A stretch of DNA of 64,000 bases, taken from contig NZ_JRMV01000281.1 of NCBI RefSeq assembly GCF_000758755.1, positions 109,981 to 173,980 on the forward strand, read 5' to 3'. Under the pieces are notes generated by a model. It was not told where the DNA came from. It searched no databases and saw only the letters and a list, made by a program, of their open reading frames with translations. Positions within the stretch are counted from its first letter, which is position 1; each line of letters opens with the position of its first letter. A program made the translations under genes and the position numbers. Below, in pieces: positions 41,135 through 51,215 of the stretch. The stretch is from Actinomyces sp. S6-Spd3. Its GTDB lineage: Bacteria; Actinomycetota; Actinomycetes; Actinomycetales; Actinomycetaceae.

Positions 41135-41157
41135 GCATTCGCCTCGTCGATGTCTTC

Positions 41158-41195
41158 ACACTGAAAGCCTGGGTTGTCCCCCAGGCTTTCAGTGT
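41158..41195 (+). terminator. Terminator after glyA-folD
   Basis: ACACTGAAAGCCTGGG pairs perfectly with CCCAGGCTTTCAGTGT. The tail is only GTTCT, so the signal is stem-driven. Confidence 0.7.
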
Positions 41196-41202
41196 GTTCT
41201 GT

Positions 41203-41214
41203 GTCACATGTGAC
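41203..41214. promoter_or_regulatory. GTCACATGTGAC palindrome in the arc control region
   Basis: A perfect 12-bp palindrome near the far end of the 306-nt gap between folD and arcA. It resembles CRP/FNR-type half sites facing the other way, so the binding protein is unclear. Confidence 0.4.
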
Positions 41215-41225
41215 GAATATTTCAG

Positions 41226-41235
41226 GAATATATTC
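41226..41235. promoter_or_regulatory. GAATATATTC palindrome in the arc control region
   Basis: A perfect 10-bp palindrome, preceded by another GAATAT at 41215. The region is distinctly AT-rich compared with the genes on either side. Confidence 0.3.
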
Positions 41236-41310
41236 TTTTGTTTACTTATCGGACAAATTCGGCCGCTCTACTCTGGTCGATATATTTCGCGGCAATAAGG
41301 GATTTTCTTC

Positions 41311-41324
41311 TGCATATTTATGCA
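41311..41324. promoter_or_regulatory. ARG-box-like operator upstream of arcA
   Basis: TGCAT-ATTT-ATGCA has the form of an ArgR/AhrC ARG box (TGAAT-WWWW-ATTCA) with one substitution in each arm. It lies 117 nt before the arcA start. Arginine-responsive control is a reasonable inference; no argR is in the window. Confidence 0.5.
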
Positions 41325-41440
41325 ATCTGAGAATTTTCACAGCTTTGGATAAGTGATTTTTCTGAAACGAAGTGGTACGCTTGTTCCATCTCCAGGTGAT
41401 CTAACTCATGATGCGATGAAGCAGAAGAGGACCACAAGAA

Positions 41441-42664
41441 ATGCAACCAAGTGTAACTTCCGAGATTGGGCGCTTGCGCCAGGTGATTATCCATCGCCCC
41501 GGACGCGAAATGCTGCGCCTGACCCCGTCGAATATGGAACATCTCCTTTTCGATGACATGCTTTGGCTTGAGCACGCTCAAGCAGAGCACGATGACTTCG
41601 CGAACTCTCTGCGTACTCAGGGAACGGAGGTCCTCTACTTCCAGGATCTGCTGGCCGAAGCAATGGATATTCCTGCTGCTCGTCAGCATGTGCTGACCTC
41701 GGTATTCACCGAAGAGAGCCACGGCGTTGCGATCGCTGAAGCGATGCGCGCTTACGGCGAATCCCTTACGGGAGCTCAGCTTGCAGAACTCATGGTCGCA
41801 GGCCTGACCAAGGAAGAATTCGCCGAACTCAAGCTCGGCCCCATCTCTTCCGTGATCTACGACGCAATGGGTCCGACCTCTTTCATCGTCGCACCTCTGC
41901 CGAACCACCTCTTCACTCGCGACACCTCCTGCTGGGTTTACGACGGTGTTGCAATCAACTCGATGCGCAAGGAAGCACGTCGCCGCGAGACCATTAACTA
42001 CGAGGCAATCTACAACTACCTCCCTCGTTTCCAGGACCCCTCGATCAAGAAGTGGTGCAATGGCAACGAGGCAGGCCCGGCAACCGTCGAAGGCGGAGAC
42101 GTCCTGGTTATCGGAAACGGCTCTGTGCTGGTCGGCATGAGCGAACGCACCACCCCCGCCGGTGTTGAGCGCATGGCTCGCCGTCTCTTCGGCAACAGCG
42201 AGGTCAAGCAGGTTATCGCCTTGGATATGGCCAAGGAACGTGCACAGATGCACCTCGATACAGTCATGACCCAGGCTGACTACGGAGTCTTCACGAAGTA
42301 CGCAGGCATGGGAATGGTTGAATCCATGACTCTGACCTCCGACGGTGAAGGCGGCATTAAGGTCGCAGCCCACGATCCTCAGGACATGCACAAGGTCATC
42401 GCACACGCACTTGGCCTCGACGATATCAAGGTCCTGACTCCTCCGATGGACGCCCTCGCAGCAGAACGCGAACAGTGGAACGACGGTTCCAACGTCCTCG
42501 CTGGCGCCCCCGGCGTTGTCTACGCCTACGAGCGCAACATCACCACCAACGACTTCTTGACCGAAAACGGCATCACAGTGATCACTGTCCCAGGCGATGA
42601 GCTTGGCCGAGGCCGTGGTGGCCCGCGCTGCATGTCGTGCCCGGTCGTGCGTGAAGCGGTCTGA
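41441..42664 (+). CDS. arcA: Arginine deiminase
   Basis: 407 residues with the guanidino-group-modifying fold. The catalytic cysteine is C400 in CMSCP, and other ADI motifs are visible: LPNHLFTRDTSCW, VEGGDVLVIG and an HLDTV segment (catalytic His). It hydrolyses arginine to citrulline and ammonia, the first step of the ADI pathway that yields ATP and raises pH. AGAGGA lies upstream of the ATG. arcB and arcC follow on the same strand, with 54 nt and then 1 nt between genes. Confidence 0.96.
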   Translation: MQPSVTSEIGRLRQVIIHRPGREMLRLTPSNMEHLLFDDMLWLEHAQAEHDDFANSLRTQGTEVLYFQDLLAEAMDIPAARQHVLTSVFTEESHGVAIAEAMRAYGESLTGAQLAELMVAGLTKEEFAELKLGPISSVIYDAMGPTSFIVAPLPNHLFTRDTSCWVYDGVAINSMRKEARRRETINYEAIYNYLPRFQDPSIKKWCNGNEAGPATVEGGDVLVIGNGSVLVGMSERTTPAGVERMARRLFGNSEVKQVIALDMAKERAQMHLDTVMTQADYGVFTKYAGMGMVESMTLTSDGEGGIKVAAHDPQDMHKVIAHALGLDDIKVLTPPMDALAAEREQWNDGSNVLAGAPGVVYAYERNITTNDFLTENGITVITVPGDELGRGRGGPRCMSCPVVREAV

Positions 42665-42718
42665 GCGGCCTGCCCTCCACGCGGAAGAAACAACAAAACT
42701 CTCTGAAAGGAAACAACA

Positions 42719-43729
42719 ATGGAGTTCCCCCTGCACGGACGTCACTTCTTGAAGGAAACCGACTTCACCGTTGAAGAGTGGCTCTACCTTCTGGATCTGG
42801 CAGCCGAACTGAAGGCCGCAAAGAAGGCCGGCCGCGAGGTTAAATACCTCGTTGACAAGAACATTGCGCTGATCTTCGAAAAGACCTCGACCCGTACCCG
42901 CTGCTCCTTCGAGGTTGCAGCATACGACCAGGGCGCACACGTCACCTACCTCGATCCCACCGGCTCCCAGATGGGCCACAAGGAATCCGTCGCCGACACT
43001 GCTCGCGTCCTCGGCCGCTTCTACGACGGCATCGAGTTCCGTGGCAAGAAGCAGGCACACGTTGACGAGCTCGCCGCTCTGTCCGGTGTGCCGGTGTGGA
43101 ACGGCCTCACCGATGACTGGCACCCCACCCAGATGCTCGCTGACCAGCTGACCATGCTCGAAGCCTCCGGCAAGAAGCCGAACGAAATCAGCATCGCTTA
43201 CGTGGGCGACGCCCGCAACAACGTCGGCAACTCGATCCTCATCTCCTGCGCCATGATCGGCATGGATGTCCGCATGGTTGCCCCCAAGGAACTCTTCAAC
43301 TCTCCCGAGGTCGTTGCAGCTGCTGAAGAGCTCGCAGCAAAGTCCGGTGGCAAGGTTCTCGTCACCGACAACATCGAAGAGGGCGTCAAGGGCGCAGACT
43401 TCATCTACACCGACATCTGGTTGTCGATGGGTGAAAGCAAGGAAAAGTGGGATGAGCGCATCGCTCTGCTCCGTCCCTTCCAGGTCAACGCAGAGCTCAT
43501 GGCAGCAACCGGCAACCCGGATGTCAAGTTCCTGCACTGCCTGCCTTCCTTCCACGACATCAACACCACCGTTGGCCAGGACATCTTCGAGAAGACCGGC
43601 ATGGGCAACGGCCTGGAAGTGACCAACGACGTGTTCGAGTCGCCCGCTTCGATCGTCTTCGATCAGGCTGAGAACCGCATGCACACCATTAAGGCCGTCA
43701 TGGTCGCCACCCTCGGAGAAGAAAAGTAA
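42719..43729 (+). CDS. arcB: Ornithine carbamoyltransferase (catabolic)
   Basis: 336 residues. The carbamoyl-phosphate motif STRTR is at 57-61, followed by [20 protein letters not shown], and the ornithine-binding HCLPSFHD (usually HCLPAFHD). In this operon it runs as phosphorolysis of citrulline to ornithine and carbamoyl phosphate. GAAAGGAAAC precedes the ATG. arcC starts one base after its stop. Confidence 0.95.
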
Positions 43730-43730
43730 C

Positions 43731-44654
43731 ATGCGCATCGTAGTTGCACTGGGCGGTAACGCCCTCCTCAAGCGCGGCGAAAAGCCGGACGCTCGCAACC
43801 AGATTGAAAACGTCAACCTGGCAGCAGAGCAGCTCGCTAAGCTCGCAAAGGACCACGAACTGGTCATCACCCACGGCAATGGCCCGCAGGTTGGTGTCCT
43901 GGCACTGGAATCCGCATCCGATGCTCGTCTGTCCGAGCCCTACCCCTTCGATACGCTGGGTGCAGAAACCCAGGGCATGATCGGCTACTGGCTCCAGCAG
44001 GGTGTTAAGAATGCTCTCCCCAGCGCCAATGTCATGGCTTTGATCAACCAGACTCTGGTTCTGGCCGACGATCCCGCCTTCGCGAACCCCACCAAGTTCA
44101 TTGGCGAGGTTTACTCGAAGGAAGAAGCTGAGAAGCTTGCCGCAGAGCGCGGCTGGGTTGTCAAGGCAGACGGCGAATACTTCCGCCGCGTCGTGGGTTC
44201 GCCCAAGCCGCAGCGCGTGATTGAAACCCCGCTCATCAAGGTCCTCCTTGATGCCGGTGCCACGGTGATCTGTGGCGGTGGCGGCGGCGTTCCGGTCGTG
44301 CGCAATGGCGAAGGCAAGCTCGAAGGCGTCGAGGCTGTTATCGACAAGGACCTCACGGCAGCTGTCATGGCAGACTCCCTCGAAGCGGACATGCTGATCA
44401 TCCTGACCGACGTTGATGGTGCACAGCTTGACTACGGCACCCCCAACGCCCGTCGCATTGATCGTGCAACCCCGGCCGAGATGCGTGGATACGGATTCCC
44501 CGCTGGCTCAATGGGCCCGAAGGTCGAGGCCGTGTGCCGTTTCGTCGAGCTGACCGGCGGCGTCGCTGCAATCGGTCGCCTCGAGGATGCCACGAAGATC
44601 ATCGCCGGTGAAGCCGGCACGATCGTGACGCCCGACGGAACCTACAACGCCTGA
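43731..44654 (+). CDS. arcC: Carbamate kinase
   Basis: 307 residues of the amino-acid-kinase fold: VVALGGNALLKRGEKP at the start, THGNGPQVG, CGGGGGVPV, IDKDLTAAVMA and ILTDVDGA. It makes ATP from carbamoyl phosphate and ADP, closing the ADI pathway. It is directly attached to arcB. An unusually structured 246-nt spacer separates it from the amidinotransferase gene. Confidence 0.95.
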   Translation: MRIVVALGGNALLKRGEKPDARNQIENVNLAAEQLAKLAKDHELVITHGNGPQVGVLALESASDARLSEPYPFDTLGAETQGMIGYWLQQGVKNALPSANVMALINQTLVLADDPAFANPTKFIGEVYSKEEAEKLAAERGWVVKADGEYFRRVVGSPKPQRVIETPLIKVLLDAGATVICGGGGGVPVVRNGEGKLEGVEAVIDKDLTAAVMADSLEADMLIILTDVDGAQLDYGTPNARRIDRATPAEMRGYGFPAGSMGPKVEAVCRFVELTGGVAAIGRLEDATKIIAGEAGTIVTPDGTYNA

Positions 44655-44672
44655 TAAGGCTCAATAGCACTT

Positions 44673-44716
44673 CCGCTTCCCCCTCACGCTCCACACACCT
44701 CCCGAGGGGGAAGCGG
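44673..44716 (+). terminator. Strong hairpin after arcC
   Basis: CCGCTTCCCCCTC (44673-44685) pairs perfectly with GAGGGGGAAGCGG (44704-44716). It could end arcABC transcription or protect its 3' end, but no T-run follows. Confidence 0.55.
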
Positions 44717-44722
44717 ACCCAA

Positions 44723-44834
44723 GGGCCACAGCGCCCTCGGGAACCAAGCTTCTTCGGGGAACCGAAGAAGGGCGGGAAAACCCGCCCACTTGGAGATCGT
44801 CAACTTCGGTTGGCAACTGTTTCGAGAGCGGTTT
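44723..44834 (+). ncRNA. Candidate structured RNA upstream of the amidinotransferase gene
   Basis: A series of stems can be drawn by eye. GGGC/GCCC (44723-44736) comes first. A three-way junction follows, closed by CCAAG (44744-44748)/CTTGG (44789-44793) and holding CTTCTTCGG-GGAA-CCGAAGAAG (44749-44770) and GGCGGG-AAAA-CCCGCC (44771-44786). Then come CAAC-TTCG-GTTG (44801-44812) and a GCGG/CCGC hairpin (44828-44841 region). The leader ends with AAGGGAG before the gene. The junction is continuous and almost gap-free, as in riboswitches. It does not match guanidine-I, -II or -III elements as I know them. Confidence 0.5.
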
Positions 44835-44900
44835 TCTCCGCCATCCCTCAAAGAAATTTGGGGATAAATTAACAACACACTCACAAGGGAGTGAAACAAA

Positions 44901-46028
44901 ATGACGAAGATCGTCAATTCGTGGAACGATTTCGATCCGCTGAAGCATGTTATCGTTGGTCGCGCGGACTTCTCCGTAATTCCGCCCGAAGAGCCCGCAA
45001 CCTCCGAAAAGGTTCCGGTTGACTCCGAGATGCGCGGCATGTGGGGACCCCGTCCCACCGCCACCGTTGAAGCAGCTAACGAGCAGCTCGACAACTACGT
45101 CAAGATCCTCGAAGGCCTCGGCGTCAAGGTTGACCGCCCGACTCCTCTGCAGTGGAACCAGGAGATCAAGACTCCCGACTTCCGCACCGAGTCCGGCATG
45201 ACCCAGATGCCTCCTCGTGACATCCTGCTCACGATGGGCAACGAGATCCTTTCTTCAGCAAACTCCTTCCGCTGCCGCTACTTCGAGTACCTGGCCTACT
45301 GGCCGCTCATGAACGAGTACTTCGAGCAGGACCCCGAGTTCCTCTGGACCCAGGCTCCCCGTCCTCGTCTGACCGACAAGTCCTACAAGCACAACTACTA
45401 CGATGAGCGGATCTCCCTCGAGGAGCGCCTCGAGCGCACCGCAGCCAAGGACTTCGTGACCACTGAAGTTGAGCCCATGTGGGACGCAGCTGACGTCATG
45501 CGCGTCGGCAAGGACCTCTTCATCCAGCACGGCCTCACCACCAACCGTAAGGCCATGGAGTGGTTCAAGCGCTACTACCCCGATTTCCGCGTTCACGCTG
45601 TGAACTTCCCCGGTGATCCCTACCCGATCCACATCGACGCGACCTTCGTGCCGCTGCGTCCGGGCCTGATCATCAACAACCCCCACCGTCGTCTGCCCGA
45701 AGAGCAGCGCAAGATCTTCGAAGCCAACGATTGGCAGATCGTTGACGCCGCAGATCCGGCACACACCACCCCGCCGCCGCTGTGCTACTCCTCGGTGTGG
45801 TTGTCCATGAACTGCTTGGTCATCGACCACAAGACCGTCTGTGTTGAGGCCTCTGAGGTCCACCAGCTGGAGCAGATGGACAAGCTGGGCATGAACGTCA
45901 TCCCCGTCCCCTTCCGCGATGCTTACGCATTCGGCGGCGGCCTGCACTGCGCGACCGCTGACGTTTACCGTGAAGGCGGCTGCGAGGATTACTTCCCCAA
46001 CCAGGTCGACGATCCCACGCTGGTCTGA
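44901..46028 (+). CDS. Amidinotransferase of the glycine amidinotransferase (AGAT) family
   Basis: 375 residues, collinear with vertebrate AGAT: TPDFRTESG, PPRDILLTMGNEI, DFVTTEVEP, then the catalytic triad D195 (WDAADV), H244 (IHIDATF, with D246) and C350 (GGGLHCATADV). Family enzymes move the amidino group of arginine to an amine: glycine (giving guanidinoacetate), lysine, or an inosamine in streptomycin synthesis, releasing ornithine. Which acceptor is used here is unknown. ACAAGGGAGTG precedes the ATG. Its position just after arcABC links it to arginine use, and its ornithine product could enter the same pool. Confidence 0.9.
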   Translation: MTKIVNSWNDFDPLKHVIVGRADFSVIPPEEPATSEKVPVDSEMRGMWGPRPTATVEAANEQLDNYVKILEGLGVKVDRPTPLQWNQEIKTPDFRTESGMTQMPPRDILLTMGNEILSSANSFRCRYFEYLAYWPLMNEYFEQDPEFLWTQAPRPRLTDKSYKHNYYDERISLEERLERTAAKDFVTTEVEPMWDAADVMRVGKDLFIQHGLTTNRKAMEWFKRYYPDFRVHAVNFPGDPYPIHIDATFVPLRPGLIINNPHRRLPEEQRKIFEANDWQIVDAADPAHTTPPPLCYSSVWLSMNCLVIDHKTVCVEASEVHQLEQMDKLGMNVIPVPFRDAYAFGGGLHCATADVYREGGCEDYFPNQVDDPTLV

Positions 46029-46040
46029 CGATCTAAAGGC

Positions 46041-46082
46041 TAGGCCCCCCCGATTCCTCCAATTCTGTATCGGGGGGGCCTA
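46041..46082 (+). terminator. Hairpin after the amidinotransferase gene
   Basis: TAGGCCCCCCCGAT and ATCGGGGGGGCCTA form a perfect 14-bp stem with a 14-nt loop. There is no T-run after it. Confidence 0.6.
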
Positions 46083-46103
46083 ACCCCTATCTGCACAAGA
46101 ATT

Positions 46104-46235
46104 CCCCGGTGGTGAAATGTCGTGACTATCCGGGGGAGTAACGGGGACGTGGTTGCCCAATCGGGAACGCTAATCGAGCTTGTTGTTCCCCTTAGCCCGC
46201 GGACCTGGTTCTGCTGAAGCATTAACACTTCCAGG
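46104..46235 (+). other. Leader region with short stems before the DMT transporter gene
   Basis: Visible stems are CCCCGG (46104-46109)/CCGGGG (46130-46135), GGGAAC (46163-46168)/GTTCCC (46185-46190) and CCTGG (46204-46208)/CCAGG (46231-46235). Each is short, so this may be ordinary leader sequence. The ribosome binding site GAAAGGACG follows directly. Confidence 0.3.
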
Positions 46236-46252
46236 TTTTAGAAAGGACGAAG

Positions 46253-47269
46253 ATGTCCACACAATCTAGCTACAAAATGAACGACAAGCTCGGTGTCATC
46301 GCGATCCTCATTGCTGCTACCGGTATGGCAATGGTTGGTACCTTCTCTCGCGGTGCCACCAAGGGGCTCCTTCCCGAAGACAAGGCAGTTATTGGTTCGT
46401 TCCTCTCATGTGGTCGTATGACCACCGCGATGTTCGGCTTCCTGATCATCGCGATTATCCAAGGAAAGTTCCACGATCTGTGGAAGGCTAAGGTTTCCTT
46501 CTCGGTCATCATGGGTGGCGTGAGTATTGGCCTGTCCCTTGGCTTCTACATTTCGTCGACGCTGATGACGTCGATTGCAAACGCAGTCTTCTTAATCTAC
46601 ACCGGCCCGCTCTTCTGTACGATCTTGGCTCGAATCTTCCGTAAAGAGCACATCAGCCTTATGGCCGGCGCATTCCTGGCGATGGTCTTCATCGGCATGC
46701 TCTTGACGATTGGCGTCATCGATTGGACTGACGGCCACCTGAAGTTTGGTCTTGACCTTTCGGGTGCAACTGCTGAATACCCGCAAAAGCCTCTTGGTGA
46801 CCTCTTCGGCTTCTTGTCCGGTGTCTTCTACGGTCTGTCGATGTTCTTCTACGGCTACCGCCGCGATATGGACTCCACCGTTCGTGGATTCTGGAACTTT
46901 GTCTTCGCAGCCAGCGCTGCACTCGTCATGAGCATCATTCTGCGCCCCTGGCACGGCGTTGCCTCCTTCACCGCTTCGAACTGGAGGTGGGCCGTTGTTC
47001 TCTTCATCGTCTGTGGTTTGATCGCCCTTGGTTCACTTGTTATCGCTGGCCGTAACCTTGTCGCTGTGAAGATCTCGACGATCTCCTACTGGGAATGCCC
47101 GGTTGCAATTGCCCTTGGCATCTTCGTTTGGGGCGAAAGCATGACCGTTACGGGTGCAATCGGTGGTCTGCTGATCATCATCGGCGGCATCGGCCCGATC
47201 TTGTTCAAGGATAAGACCGCGGCTCCCGTAGAGGAGGGGGATGCACTTCAGGAGGTCGAGGCACGATGA
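46253..47269 (+). CDS. EamA/DMT-superfamily transporter
   Basis: 338 residues with about ten membrane segments in two halves, the drug/metabolite transporter pattern. Examples are GVIAILIAATGMAMVGTFSRG at the start and TISYWECPVAIALGIFVWGES near the end. Members mostly export small metabolites or amino acids. A longer loop than usual (about residues 160-195) separates the halves. It overlaps the next transporter gene by 4 nt (ATGA), so the two are made together. Given the amidinotransferase upstream, export of a guanidino compound or ornithine is a possible role; this is inference. Confidence 0.82.
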   Translation: MSTQSSYKMNDKLGVIAILIAATGMAMVGTFSRGATKGLLPEDKAVIGSFLSCGRMTTAMFGFLIIAIIQGKFHDLWKAKVSFSVIMGGVSIGLSLGFYISSTLMTSIANAVFLIYTGPLFCTILARIFRKEHISLMAGAFLAMVFIGMLLTIGVIDWTDGHLKFGLDLSGATAEYPQKPLGDLFGFLSGVFYGLSMFFYGYRRDMDSTVRGFWNFVFAASAALVMSIILRPWHGVASFTASNWRWAVVLFIVCGLIALGSLVIAGRNLVAVKISTISYWECPVAIALGIFVWGESMTVTGAIGGLLIIIGGIGPILFKDKTAAPVEEGDALQEVEAR

Positions 47270-48654
47270 GTGGTCAAGCACAGTCTGATAGTGGTAGCGA
47301 ACACCACACACTCCTCCATCACGAGATGAGCGCCGAAGAACACGAGAAGCTTAAGACTCTCAGACGCGCTGCCGGCGCTTCGTTCATCGGTAATTTTATT
47401 GAGTGGTTTGACTACGCCTCGTATGGCTACCTGGCAGCTGTCATCGGCATCGTCTTTATCCCATCCGAGGATAAGAACATCCAGCTGATTTCAGCATTCG
47501 CAATCTTCGCAATGTCCTTCATCCTGCGTCCCGTTGGTGGTCTCATCTGGGGAATTTGGGGTGACAAATATGGTCGTCGATCGGCCCTTTCCTGGTCGAT
47601 CCTCATCATGTCGGGCTCGACATTCCTGATTGCGTTCCTGCCAGGACATAAGACAATCGGTCTGGCTTCGGCCATCTGCCTCCTCGTCCTGCGTATGATC
47701 CAGGGCTTCTCGGCCTCGGGCGAATACGCTGGAGCGGGAACATTCCTCGCAGAATATGCGCCGCCGAAGAAGCGCGGTATGTACACTGCACTGGTTCCCG
47801 CATCGACTGCAGTTGGTTTGCTGGCCGCGTCGTTCTTGACCGCTTGCCTCTTCCACTTCCTCTCGGATGCACAGATCGAATCGTGGGGATGGAGAATTCC
47901 GTTCCTGCTCGCAGGTCCCCTTGGAATGATCGGTCGCTACATCCGTCTCCACTTGGAAGACTCGCCAACCTACATCGCGATGAAGGAAGCGATCAGTGGT
48001 GGACAGAAGCAGAGCGTTCCAATGTCGAAGGTCCTCAGGGACCACACCCGTACGATTTGCGTCTCCTTCGGCGTAGCATCGCTGAATGCAGTCGCCTTCT
48101 ACCTGTTGCTGAGCTACATGCCGACCTATGTTGAGCAGGAACTTGGCTTCTCGTCAGATTTGGCGACGGCACTGTCGACCGCACCGCTGATTGTCTACAT
48201 CGGCTCGATCATGGTGATGGGACACCTGTCAGATACTCATGGACGGCGCAAGATGCTACTAATTGCATCAGTTGCCTTCATCGTCCTGACAGTTCCGATC
48301 TTCATGCTCATGGGAACTCGTAACGTCTGGGTCGTCCTGCTGTGTGAAATTGCATTTGCAATCATGCTGACGATCAACGACGGTACACTGGCGACCTTCC
48401 TCGCTGAGTCCTTCCCGACCGAGGTCCGCTACACCGGATTCGCGTTGTCCTTCAATACGGCTAATGCGCTTCTTGGCGGAACCGCTCCGACAATCGCCAC
48501 GGCACTGATCCAGTACACGGGTTCGTCCCTGGCACCGGCCTACTACCTGGCGTTCATTGCGTTCCTGGCGCTCACTGCCATGCTTGCGATTCCACAGCAC
48601 GCGACAAGTGCTCTCGATCGCGAGCAAGCGGAAAGCGCCCAGTCTCAGGGGTAA
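47266..48654 (+). CDS. MFS transporter, metabolite:H+ symporter (MHS/ProP-like) family
   Basis: 462 residues. The MHS signature features are present: SFIGNFIEWFDYASYGYLA near residue 39, GDKYGRRSALSWSI (loop 2-3 motif), RMIQGFSASGEYAGAG and GHLSDTHGRRKMLL. About 12 membrane segments. Relatives take up proline, betaine, ectoine, citrate or other zwitterions with protons. The N-terminus has a His/Glu-rich polar tail of ~35 residues. It is translationally coupled to the DMT gene. A terminator follows. Confidence 0.88.
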   Translation: MSGQAQSDSGSEHHTLLHHEMSAEEHEKLKTLRRAAGASFIGNFIEWFDYASYGYLAAVIGIVFIPSEDKNIQLISAFAIFAMSFILRPVGGLIWGIWGDKYGRRSALSWSILIMSGSTFLIAFLPGHKTIGLASAICLLVLRMIQGFSASGEYAGAGTFLAEYAPPKKRGMYTALVPASTAVGLLAASFLTACLFHFLSDAQIESWGWRIPFLLAGPLGMIGRYIRLHLEDSPTYIAMKEAISGGQKQSVPMSKVLRDHTRTICVSFGVASLNAVAFYLLLSYMPTYVEQELGFSSDLATALSTAPLIVYIGSIMVMGHLSDTHGRRKMLLIASVAFIVLTVPIFMLMGTRNVWVVLLCEIAFAIMLTINDGTLATFLAESFPTEVRYTGFALSFNTANALLGGTAPTIATALIQYTGSSLAPAYYLAFIAFLALTAMLAIPQHATSALDREQAESAQSQG

Positions 48655-48664
48655 CAGGAAAATA

Positions 48665-48717
48665 GAACTCGGAACCTTTGCACGGTGTTGCGACGGCTAA
48701 GGTTCCGAGTTCTTTTT
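48665..48717 (+). terminator. Intrinsic terminator after the MHS transporter
   Basis: GAACTCGGAACCTT (48665-48678) pairs with AAGGTTCCGAGTTC (48699-48712), followed by TTTTT. Confidence 0.9.
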
Positions 48718-48829
48718 CTCACCTATTTCAATCAGCAAAAGACATAGGTGGGGGATAGTATGACCGTTAAGCGCATAACCCTGAATAAATGAGATTTTTT
48801 AGGACGCTCGTACTAGAAAGGGGACCCAG

Positions 48830-49432
48830 ATGTCTGCTGGCGCAATCTCGCACACTGCAAGTACGCGAAAAGGCTTCGATAAGCGCCAGCTGATCATTGA
48901 CGCTGCTGCCACCTTGCTCCGTGAAGGTGGACCCGAAGCGGTTTCACACCGTTCCGTTGCGCGGCTTGCCGGGTGCTCTTTATCCGCAACAACATACTAT
49001 TTTGACGGCCTTGAGGATCTTCTTCACCAAGCGGGCCTGGCTAACATGAGCCGTTGGTCTGAGCGTGCCGAACGCGCTGCTTTCAGAGCTCGCAAGCTCA
49101 AGAGTGACGCTTCGGTAAAAGAAAGGATTGATTTGATCCTTTCTGCGACACTTCCTGATGATGAAAATCTTAAGGGGCACTATGAGCAGCTTGTCTCCGC
49201 GGGTGGGGCGGCGCTTGTGGCCAGTGCATATCAATTCGGTCGTGTTCGACTCAATATTGCGGTAACAACTGTTTTGTCGGCGGTCGGGGTTGACCTTCCG
49301 GCTGAAGTCGTTATTGCGCTTGTTGATGGTGCGGCCGTATCTGCGCTTTCTGAAGGTCGTGATGTTCGCGCCACCGCCTTTGAGCTTCTTGATAGCGCAC
49401 TACATAAATATTGGAAAATAGGCATAGTTTAA
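48830..49432 (+). CDS. TetR-family transcriptional regulator
   Basis: 200 residues with an N-terminal helix-turn-helix: LIIDAAATLLREGGPEAVS, then SVARLAGCSLSATTYYFDG, the TetR recognition helix with its closing YYF. The C-terminal ligand domain is not recognisable. AAAGGGGA lies before the ATG. It sits between the transporter pair and the LysP-like permease gene, whose control region holds a partial match to sequence upstream of this gene (CTCGTACTA versus CTCGTACCA), so it may control the permease and itself. Confidence 0.85.
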   Translation: MSAGAISHTASTRKGFDKRQLIIDAAATLLREGGPEAVSHRSVARLAGCSLSATTYYFDGLEDLLHQAGLANMSRWSERAERAAFRARKLKSDASVKERIDLILSATLPDDENLKGHYEQLVSAGGAALVASAYQFGRVRLNIAVTTVLSAVGVDLPAEVVIALVDGAAVSALSEGRDVRATAFELLDSALHKYWKIGIV

Positions 49433-49588
49433 GCGCGTGAATCTGCCCAAGCGGTGAGTGCTTCCCGCAAACTTTGCCCGCTTGTCCAATTAATGGGATC
49501 GTAAAAAGAAAGAAAAGTCCGCAATCTTGCCATTTCTGCTGCAAAATTTCTGCGATTGCGCTGGGAATGAATAGTATTGGCGATGCAT

Positions 49589-49608
49589 AGTAGTACACTC
49601 GTACCACT
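49589..49608. promoter_or_regulatory. Inverted repeat upstream of the LysP-like gene
   Basis: AGTAGTAC-ACTC-GTACCACT has 8-bp arms with one mismatch, 47 nt before the start codon. The right half with its flank (CTCGTACCA) is nearly repeated as CTCGTACTA upstream of the TetR gene. A TetR operator is the simplest reading. Confidence 0.45.
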
Positions 49609-49612
49609 AACT

Positions 49613-49626
49613 TGAGCCTTGGCTCA
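49613..49626. promoter_or_regulatory. TGAGCC-TT-GGCTCA palindrome
   Basis: Six-base arms and a two-base centre, directly after the preceding inverted repeat. It could be a second operator or a small 5' leader hairpin. Confidence 0.35.
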
Positions 49627-49655
49627 GGTCACAAAAGATTCGTAGGAGAATCATT

Positions 49656-51215
49656 ATGTTCTGGTCGCAACCTCAAATAAAAGAAGATTCTGCAGGCCTC
49701 GATGCGCAGCAATGCGGCGGTTGCGGGAAGGTCGCTGAGCGCACAGATCTCAAGCGTGGTCTGAGCGGTCGACACATGCAGATGATCGCCATCGGCGGTG
49801 CGATCGGAACCGGTCTCTTCGTCGCCTCGGGCGCTACGGTTTCAACGGCCGGTCCGGGGGGTGCGCTCGTCGCCTACACGGCGATCGGCCTCATGGTACT
49901 TCTCCTGATGCAGTCGCTCGGTGAAATGAGCGCACACATGCCGGTTGTTGGCAACTTCCAAACCTATGCCGCGCGCTTCATTAGCCCTTCCTTTGGCTTC
50001 GCGATGGGGTGGAACTACTGGTTTAACTGGGCCGTAACGGTCTCAGCTGACCTTGTCGCCTCGGGAATCGTCATGTCCTACTGGTTCCCGGACGTTCCGG
50101 GGTGGATGTGGGCAGCGGGATTCCTTGTCCTTCTCACCGTTTTGAACGCGCTCAGTGCGCGGGTTTATGGCGAAGCCGAGTTCTGGCTGGCAACCATTAA
50201 GGTCGTGACCATCATCGTCTTCCTGGTCTCCGGTGTTGCCATGATCTTCGGCATTCTGGGCAACGGCTCGCCTGGCTTTGCGAACTGGCGCATTGAAGAC
50301 GCGCCCTTCCACGGCGGATTCTTGCCGATCGTCACGATCTTCATGATCGCCGGCTTCTCATTCCAAGGAACCGAGCTTGTCGGCGTCGCTGCAGCAGAAT
50401 CGGGCAATCCTCACCGTGATGTGCCTCGCGCCATTAAGTCGGTCTTCTGGCGCATCATGTTCTTCTACATTGGTGCTATCGCCATCATCGGCACGCTGAT
50501 TCCGTTCACTGACCCGAATCTGTTGCGCAGCAGTGAATCAGATATCGCGTACTCGCCTTTCACCTTGGTCTTCGATCGTTTGGGCATTGCAGCGGCTGCG
50601 GCCGTGATGAACGCGGTTATTTTGACGTCGATTCTTTCGGCGGGTAACTCGGGGCTCTATGCTTCTTCGCGAATGCTGCACTCGATGGCTCTCATTGGCC
50701 AGGCTCCCCGCGTTTTTTGTCACGTGACGAAGAGGGGAGTCCCGCTCAATGCGATGCTCGCTACTGCCGCTGTTTCGGCTCTTGGTTTCTGCACGGCGCT
50801 GGTTGGCGAGGGAACGGCATACACCTGGTTGGTGAGTATCGTCGGTGTCTCGGGAATCTTTATGTGGCTAGGTATTGCGGCGTGCCATATTCGTTTCCGT
50901 CGTGCCTACCTGCTCCAGGGGTACAAGCTTGAGGACCTGCCGTATCGCGCGCCATTCTTCCCCTTCGGACCGATTTTGGCTTTCGGTATGTGCCTAATCG
51001 TTTTGCTTGGCCAGAACTATGAGGCGATCTTCCTTGGCCAGCTGTGGGAGATTATCTCGGCATACATTGGTGTTCCGCTCTTCTTGGGAGTCTGGCTGGG
51101 ATATCACCTCATCAAGAAGGACCGCATGACTCCGCTTGCTGAACTTGATGTTCGCGGAGTAACTCGCGAGCAGATCGAAGAGGATATCGAGCGCACCAAG
51201 CACTACGATGACTGA
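49656..51215 (+). CDS. Amino acid permease, APC superfamily (LysP-like)
   Basis: 519 residues, about 12 membrane segments. The AAT-family opening is LKRGLSGRHMQMIAIGGAIGTG in residues ~32-53, followed by GEMSAHMPVVGNF, SFQGTELVGVAAAES and NPHRDVPRAIKSVFWRI. These match lysine-specific and other basic amino acid permeases most closely, so lysine or arginine uptake is likely. TAGGAG lies upstream of the ATG. The N-terminal tail has a CGGCG Cys pair, unusual for the family. It is a single gene after the TetR regulator. Confidence 0.88.
   Translation: MFWSQPQIKEDSAGLDAQQCGGCGKVAERTDLKRGLSGRHMQMIAIGGAIGTGLFVASGATVSTAGPGGALVAYTAIGLMVLLLMQSLGEMSAHMPVVGNFQTYAARFISPSFGFAMGWNYWFNWAVTVSADLVASGIVMSYWFPDVPGWMWAAGFLVLLTVLNALSARVYGEAEFWLATIKVVTIIVFLVSGVAMIFGILGNGSPGFANWRIEDAPFHGGFLPIVTIFMIAGFSFQGTELVGVAAAESGNPHRDVPRAIKSVFWRIMFFYIGAIAIIGTLIPFTDPNLLRSSESDIAYSPFTLVFDRLGIAAAAAVMNAVILTSILSAGNSGLYASSRMLHSMALIGQAPRVFCHVTKRGVPLNAMLATAAVSALGFCTALVGEGTAYTWLVSIVGVSGIFMWLGIAACHIRFRRAYLLQGYKLEDLPYRAPFFPFGPILAFGMCLIVLLGQNYEAIFLGQLWEIISAYIGVPLFLGVWLGYHLIKKDRMTPLAELDVRGVTREQIEEDIERTKHYDD

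Follow-up and report, generated by a model that had tools for sequence, protein, structure and literature searches.

Gene content of the locus

The locus described here lies in a 64,000-nucleotide stretch of the Actinomyces sp. S6-Spd3 genome (contig NZ_JRMV01000281.1), called the window below, and comprises eight genes, all on the + strand, in the order arcA-arcB-arcC-AMT-DMT-MHS-TetR-LysP-like permease. The first three form an arginine deiminase (ADI) operon and the fourth, AMT, encodes an amidinotransferase related to human L-arginine:glycine amidinotransferase (AGAT, GATM). The first seven genes are a recurrent module in relatives, and it is quite probable that this module ferments creatine, AMT making arginine and sarcosine, ArcABC burning the arginine and the ornithine being recycled. 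The gene order, already given in a preliminary description, was confirmed by open reading frame positions and by Pfam, NCBIfam and structure family searches, which backed the names of all eight products:

41441-42664, + strand: arcA, arginine deiminase, 407 aa (PF02274, 378.8 bits; NF002381, 503 bits, over cut-off)
42719-43729, + strand: arcB, ornithine carbamoyltransferase, 336 aa (PF00185/PF02729; TIGR00658, 416 bits, over cut-off)
43731-44654, + strand: arcC, carbamate kinase, 307 aa (TIGR00746, 374.8 bits, over cut-off)
44901-46028, + strand: AMT, amidinotransferase, proposed creatine:ornithine amidinotransferase, 375 aa (human AGAT, 272 bits)
46253-47269, + strand: DMT/EamA permease, proposed exporter, possibly of sarcosine, role predicted (PF00892)
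47266-48654, + strand: MHS symporter, proposed creatine importer, role predicted (PF07690/PF00083; TIGR00883, 366 bits, below cut-off)
48830-49432, + strand: predicted TetR-family regulator (PF00440)
49656-51215, + strand: LysP-like APC permease, adjacent but not a conserved part (NF008094, 642 bits, below cut-off)

The arcA, arcB and arcC genes are adjacent and intact, as in an ADI operon, and arcA is the sole PF02274 match in the genome. The DMT and MHS genes share a 4-base overlap.

Conservation of the module

Conservation was followed in 79 named loci with an AMT 81-98% identical to that of the window, taken from the best 80 of 140 candidate stretches; neighbours were counted on the same strand and in loci with enough flank. 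These loci belong to Actinomycetaceae, Georgenia, Austwickia, Dermatophilus, Humibacillus, Cutibacterium namnetense, Eggerthellaceae (among them Gordonibacter, Adlercreutzia and Slackia) and two deltaproteobacteria. Directly upstream of AMT is arcC in 40/71 loci, followed outwards by arcB (38/68) and arcA (32/63). The downstream side is formed by DMT in 62 of 73 loci, MHS in 59 of 67 and TetR in 46 of 66, and a creatininase gene lies on that side in 13/72. The earlier proposal that the ADI genes, the amidinotransferase and the transporters belong to one unit is thus borne out, and the unit is conserved. The APC permease, which had been included in that unit, was rejected as part of it since its placement is not conserved: it occupies the same place only in L002, the window's nearest relative, and the other matches were weak (L043, L078 and L080, 24-38% identity, on the opposite strand; L025, 32%, upstream).

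AMT has changed much less than the genes around it. Median identities to the window in 44 loci, a set without the Eggerthellaceae, the two deltaproteobacteria and L002, were 89% for AMT, 75% for ArcB, 72% for ArcC, 62% for MHS and 57% for both ArcA and DMT; the 32 Eggerthellaceae loci gave 84% for AMT, 52% for MHS and 44% for DMT. The third codon positions of AMT have diverged (54% identical between L011 and the window, with 95% identical protein), which speaks for constraint and not for recent transfer. Among 396 genomes sampled across the phylum an AMT match was found in 21, and identity was 26-43% in those that come neither from the window's genome nor from family f27 (the Eggerthellaceae, since Gordonibacter is one of its members).

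The amidinotransferase and its pocket

No match to AMT was found in Pfam or NCBIfam at E 0.001. The closest solved relative is human AGAT (1jdx; 272 bits over AMT residues 5-365 of 375, with 42% identity in 351 aligned residues), and the matches also include SxtG, HsvA and inosamine-phosphate amidinotransferase. All 85 AMT sequences compared (84 from the 79 loci, one from the window) retain the counterparts of AGAT D170, D254, H303, D305, R322, S355 and C407; the full-length homology and the retained catalytic Cys, His and Asp place the enzyme in the AGAT superfamily. Five other AGAT positions are changed in 85/85: N300 to Y, M302 to I, W352 to C, M353 to Y and W408 to A, S or C. A Photobacterium homologue (60%) keeps the I, C, Y and A of the AMT clade and has H at 300. 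The roles of D170, D254, H303, D305, R322, S355, W352, M353, C407 and W408 are taken here to be those generally attributed to them in AGAT.

Positions 300 and 302 belong to the 300-flap, and in AGAT the binding of substrate depends on N300 and M302 (PMC4887976); with Y and I there in 85/85 sequences, AMT lacks this feature of AGAT proper. These two changes are weak evidence on glycine use, because CyrA, a glycine enzyme, carries F and S in its flap (same passages, PMC4887976). With the pocket differing at positions reported to be important for binding the substrate, the label 'AGAT-type' given previously should not be read as 'uses glycine'.

Creatininase and creatinase beside or in place of AMT

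Clustering of the open frames around AMT gave one family present in 15/79 loci, and the two members tested both match PF02633 creatininase; the member from L003 matches Pseudomonas putida creatininase with 291 bits. This L003 protein served as query, counted at >=50% identity, that is at least 50%, in 213 genomes of the window's family. Creatininase was identified in 26 of them (30 less G095, G105, G108 and G189, with 27-36% identity and none with AMT) and AMT in 73 (74 less G083, with 26% identity). AMT is present in 24/26 creatininase genomes versus 73/213 overall (Fisher p 7e-11), covering seven genera. With a single position per genome taken from the tables for each of the two genes, creatininase starts less than 4 kb from AMT on the same strand in 23/24, with the exception of G200, where AMT is broken up and two of the fragments lie at the end of a contig. 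The same association is seen in the 138 Eggerthellaceae genomes, 28 with creatininase, 67 with AMT and 24 with both (Fisher p 7e-6); the two are adjacent in 16/24 as read by eye, a count that includes AMT fragments at contig ends.

In the classical bacterial pathway creatinase splits creatine by hydrolysis into urea and sarcosine; no ATP is made, and the amidino group is lost as urea. At E 1e-20 it was identified in three of the 213 family genomes (G103, G104 and G109) and not in that of the window. G103 and G104 are precisely the two creatininase genomes lacking AMT. The G104 enzyme matches creatinase 1chm with 565 bits, and its locus (L173) reads creatininase-BCCT-creatinase-MHS, this MHS being 51% identical to the window's; the candidate creatine importer thus has a homologue adjoining both creatininase and creatinase. 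The G103 locus (L172) comprises creatininase, a 78-residue BCCT-like stretch and creatinase. AMT seems to replace creatinase, standing in its place in the classical pathway, and as creatinase breaks down creatine the function of a substitute is most simply catabolic too.

The arginine deiminase link

ADI was counted in 142/213 family genomes, after dropping ten with best E 2e-6 to 9e-4 from 152. It is present in 72/73 AMT genomes versus 70/140 without AMT (p 1.6e-15), and in the only exception (G088, L074) a contig edge falls where arcA is expected, arcB being the first gene. This is the distribution predicted if AMT feeds ADI and so needs it. An amidinotransferase with ornithine as acceptor gives arginine, matching the substrate of the arcABC genes just upstream. 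AmtA, a characterised relative, is described in part of PMC4887976 as reversible and running in reverse with ornithine as acceptor.

An ArcD-type antiporter was not identified in the window's genome, which is 96.5% complete (TIGR00905, none over cut-off; PF03606, none). Recycling of ornithine to AMT would make an arginine/ornithine antiporter unnecessary.

Proposed pathway and related systems

The genome context makes creatine the most likely substrate of AMT, and the whole would most likely be a form of ADI fermentation with creatine as its feedstock, a variant assembled from known enzyme families. The MHS symporter would import creatine; AMT would move its amidino group onto ornithine (creatine + ornithine giving sarcosine + arginine); ArcA, ArcB and ArcC would convert arginine to ornithine, CO2, 2 NH3 and one ATP; and the ornithine would be used by AMT again, in the manner of a catalytic carrier. 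Export of sarcosine is the probable role of the DMT permease, and the TetR regulator probably lifts repression of the genes once substrate appears. Creatininase, found in some relatives and often with a BCCT or NCS1 importer, would provide entry from creatinine.

The module shares its complete arcABC with the known ADI pathway, in which ATP is made by carbamate kinase; the differences are that arginine is proposed to come from creatine and recycled ornithine and that an ArcD-type antiporter over cut-off is lacking. The creatininase-creatinase pathway has the same substrates, the same type of creatininase and some of the same importers (MHS, BCCT) as the AMT loci, with AMT proposed to replace creatinase and pass the amidino group to ADI instead. 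Human AGAT has the same catalytic residues but works in creatine synthesis, whereas AMT would by context work in creatine breakdown, and five pocket positions differ. CyrA, AmtA, SxtG, HsvA and StrB are of the same superfamily, their genes serving natural-product synthesis; CyrA and AmtA carry other 300-flap residues than the AMT clade, as given in sections of PMC4887976. CreT of Corynebacterium glutamicum, reported in part of PMC8864220 as an MFS transporter beside creatininase and needed for growth on creatine, is a possible counterpart of the MHS symporter.

Published data on two of the organisms fit the creatine reading. Genome G558, which we take to be Eggerthella lenta DSM 2243, has two loci, AMT-DMT-C19-creatininase-BCCT-MHS and AMT-DMT-C19-MHS-TetR (C19 is described below). 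Colonic creatine was lower in gnotobiotic mice that carried this strain, and the study identified creatininase but neither creatinase nor the following enzymes (PMC11149096). In a gut transcript survey creatininase was detected in 26% of patients and creatinase in 1% (passage of PMC8745165), which leaves room for another creatine-cleaving enzyme. The second organism, Actinobaculum massiliense, has the locus arcABC-AMT-DMT-MHS-TetR (L034), and PMC6314084 reports that the levels of its AMT, ArcA, ArcB and ArcC in urinary catheter biofilm exceeded those in culture more than 8-fold; AMT is annotated there as glycine amidinotransferase and read as creatine synthesis. Creatine breakdown by an amidinotransferase together with ADI was not recognised in any description among the best matches in the open-licence PubMed Central literature, and the novelty claimed for the arrangement stands within that search.

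Points against and alternative explanations

Several observations weigh against creatine fermentation. The window's genome gave no creatininase match, so the creatine link rests on relatives; neither did Actinobaculum massiliense FC3 (L034, same coordinates as G001), and 49/73 AMT genomes of the family lack it. The Fisher values for co-occurrence ignore shared ancestry. As to the creatinase substitution, the G103 stretch examined contains no MHS and just a remnant of BCCT, and in G109 AMT occurs together with creatinase, which lies beside a second creatininase. The Eggerthellaceae contribute four points: arc genes adjoin AMT in just 4/32 loci, which qualifies the linkage of AMT to arcABC, otherwise upheld by the neighbourhood comparison; some of the 67 AMT genomes show AMT fragments only; G611 and G614 (L174, L175) have DMT-creatininase-MHS with no AMT found; and G278 and G703 (L176, L177) are without AMT, although their contigs stop near the place expected for it. 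A diverged arginine/ornithine antiporter is possible in the window's genome, four permeases matching TIGR00905 below cut-off, one of them the window's APC permease. Sarcosine was also lower in the E. lenta mice (passage of PMC11149096), and the Actinobaculum massiliense proteome, as reported in the relevant part of PMC6314084, does not separate the effects of urine and biofilm. As to the fate of sarcosine, a search for sarcosine reductase (PF07355, GRDB), run without a positive control, gave no match, and the 11 DAO family matches are not diagnostic for sarcosine use.

The alternative that survives best, though improbable, keeps the same catabolic cycle with guanidinoacetate or another guanidino acid as main donor, creatine being minor and glycine the product. 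AGAT, to which AMT is homologous, makes guanidinoacetate, the amidino transfer of AmtA is reversible (part of PMC4887976), and the AMT genomes without creatininase agree with it. It is creatine, however, that is named by the creatininase neighbours and by creatinase in the place of AMT, and AGAT positions 300 and 302 differ in every AMT sequence.

Much less probable is the scheme of the preliminary description, with arginine imported and in part burnt by ADI while AMT makes a guanidino product (guanidinoacetate, homoarginine or similar) that is exported. The biosynthetic function of the known characterised relatives agrees with it (AGAT, CyrA and StrB1; AmtA in PMC4887976), as do the APC permease nearby and a DMT permease that could export such a product. 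However, it leaves unexplained the creatininase beside AMT and the creatinase substitution, the APC permease is not conserved, and AMT would compete with ADI for arginine, yet it is nearly confined to ADI genomes. That interpretation is partly supported, in its gene content and linkage, but its direction and its product are probably wrong, and the direction should be reversed, on the evidence of the creatininase neighbours, the creatinase substitution and the ADI co-occurrence.

Two further schemes are hardly credible. In the first, arginine and sarcosine are the starting materials from which AMT forms creatine, and creatininase converts this to creatinine, to serve as an osmolyte or for waste disposal; reversibility is reported for creatininase (PMC11149096) and for amidino transfer by AmtA (PMC4887976), but a hydrolase, creatinase, takes the place of AMT in G103 and G104 and E. 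lenta lowers creatine in mice (passage of PMC11149096). The second, a role of AMT in secondary-metabolite (polyketide) synthesis, was suggested for Actinobaculum massiliense from similarity to CyrA (section of PMC6314084), whose 300-flap differs from that of the AMT clade (CyrA residues from part of PMC4887976); AMT repeatedly has arc genes, creatininase and importers as its partners, and no polyketide synthase was recognised among the clustered frames, most of which were not run against family models.

Variants of the locus and transcription signals

Some loci carry additional elements. A second arcB lies 3' of the TetR gene in L010, L011, L032 and L038 (as arcA-arcB in L038). Two AMT copies per genome, 96.7-100% identical in DNA, were found in L022, L025, L045/L053, L056, L059/L062, L061 and L068; identity falls right outside the gene in 7/7 pairs, and the neighbouring paralogues are only 77-90% identical in L045/L053 and L061. 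The copies look like gene conversion or gene-exact duplication, and their near identity may explain assembly breaks at AMT. C19, a protein of 186 residues with no Pfam match in the two members tested (e.g. L045:12574-13131 and L170:8815-9372, the latter on the - strand), is flanked by DMT on one side and by MHS or creatininase on the other in 16 Eggerthellaceae loci, where it is a predicted part of the module; 14 copies are 65-91% identical to that of G558.

In Desulfosarcina widdelii (L071:1227-11125) arcB-arcC-AMT, with no arcA beside it, is preceded by an M24 peptidase (25% identical to creatinase) and an ABC transporter resembling the one in a Paracoccus creatininase locus (ATPase 45%); an ABC transporter of the spermidine/putrescine type is present in the Paracoccus and Shinella creatininase loci. 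A Photobacterium plasmid (L135:3764-9143) contains AMT (60%) and a DMT permease (38-43%), with a sodium-solute symporter and an AraC regulator seen nearby by eye only, and may follow a similar logic in a gammaproteobacterium.

Three hairpins lie between genes of the window:

41157-41196: hairpin 3' of folD
46038-46085, + strand: hairpin 3' of AMT, terminator candidate (17-nt arms, 94%)
48660-48717, + strand: hairpin 3' of MHS followed by a T run, terminator candidate (22-nt arms, 91%)

Their positions suggest more than one transcript. Terminator-like sites overall were not above chance (8 found, 9.4 expected in shuffled sequence), and a promoter scan gave 1 site with 4.4 expected. Third-position G+C among the eight genes is highest in AMT (0.81, positions 44901-46025), followed by arcB (0.80), with TetR at 0.45; the high value of AMT could reflect high expression.

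Significance

Animals contain large amounts of creatine, the energy-buffer compound of muscle, and of creatinine, which in the clinic is the usual measure of how well the kidneys work. It is likely, if with somewhat less confidence than for the module itself, that host creatine, and creatinine where creatininase is present, is fermented by many gut, oral and urinary Actinomycetota and some other bacteria with a gain of one ATP per creatine through substrate-level phosphorylation, and that AMT is the missing creatine-cleaving step of E. lenta. If so, gut, oral and urinary bacteria would gain ATP from creatine through an enzyme annotated as glycine amidinotransferase, the fall of creatine in mice carrying E. 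lenta would be accounted for without any creatinase, and metagenomes could be scored for creatine breakdown by one marker gene.

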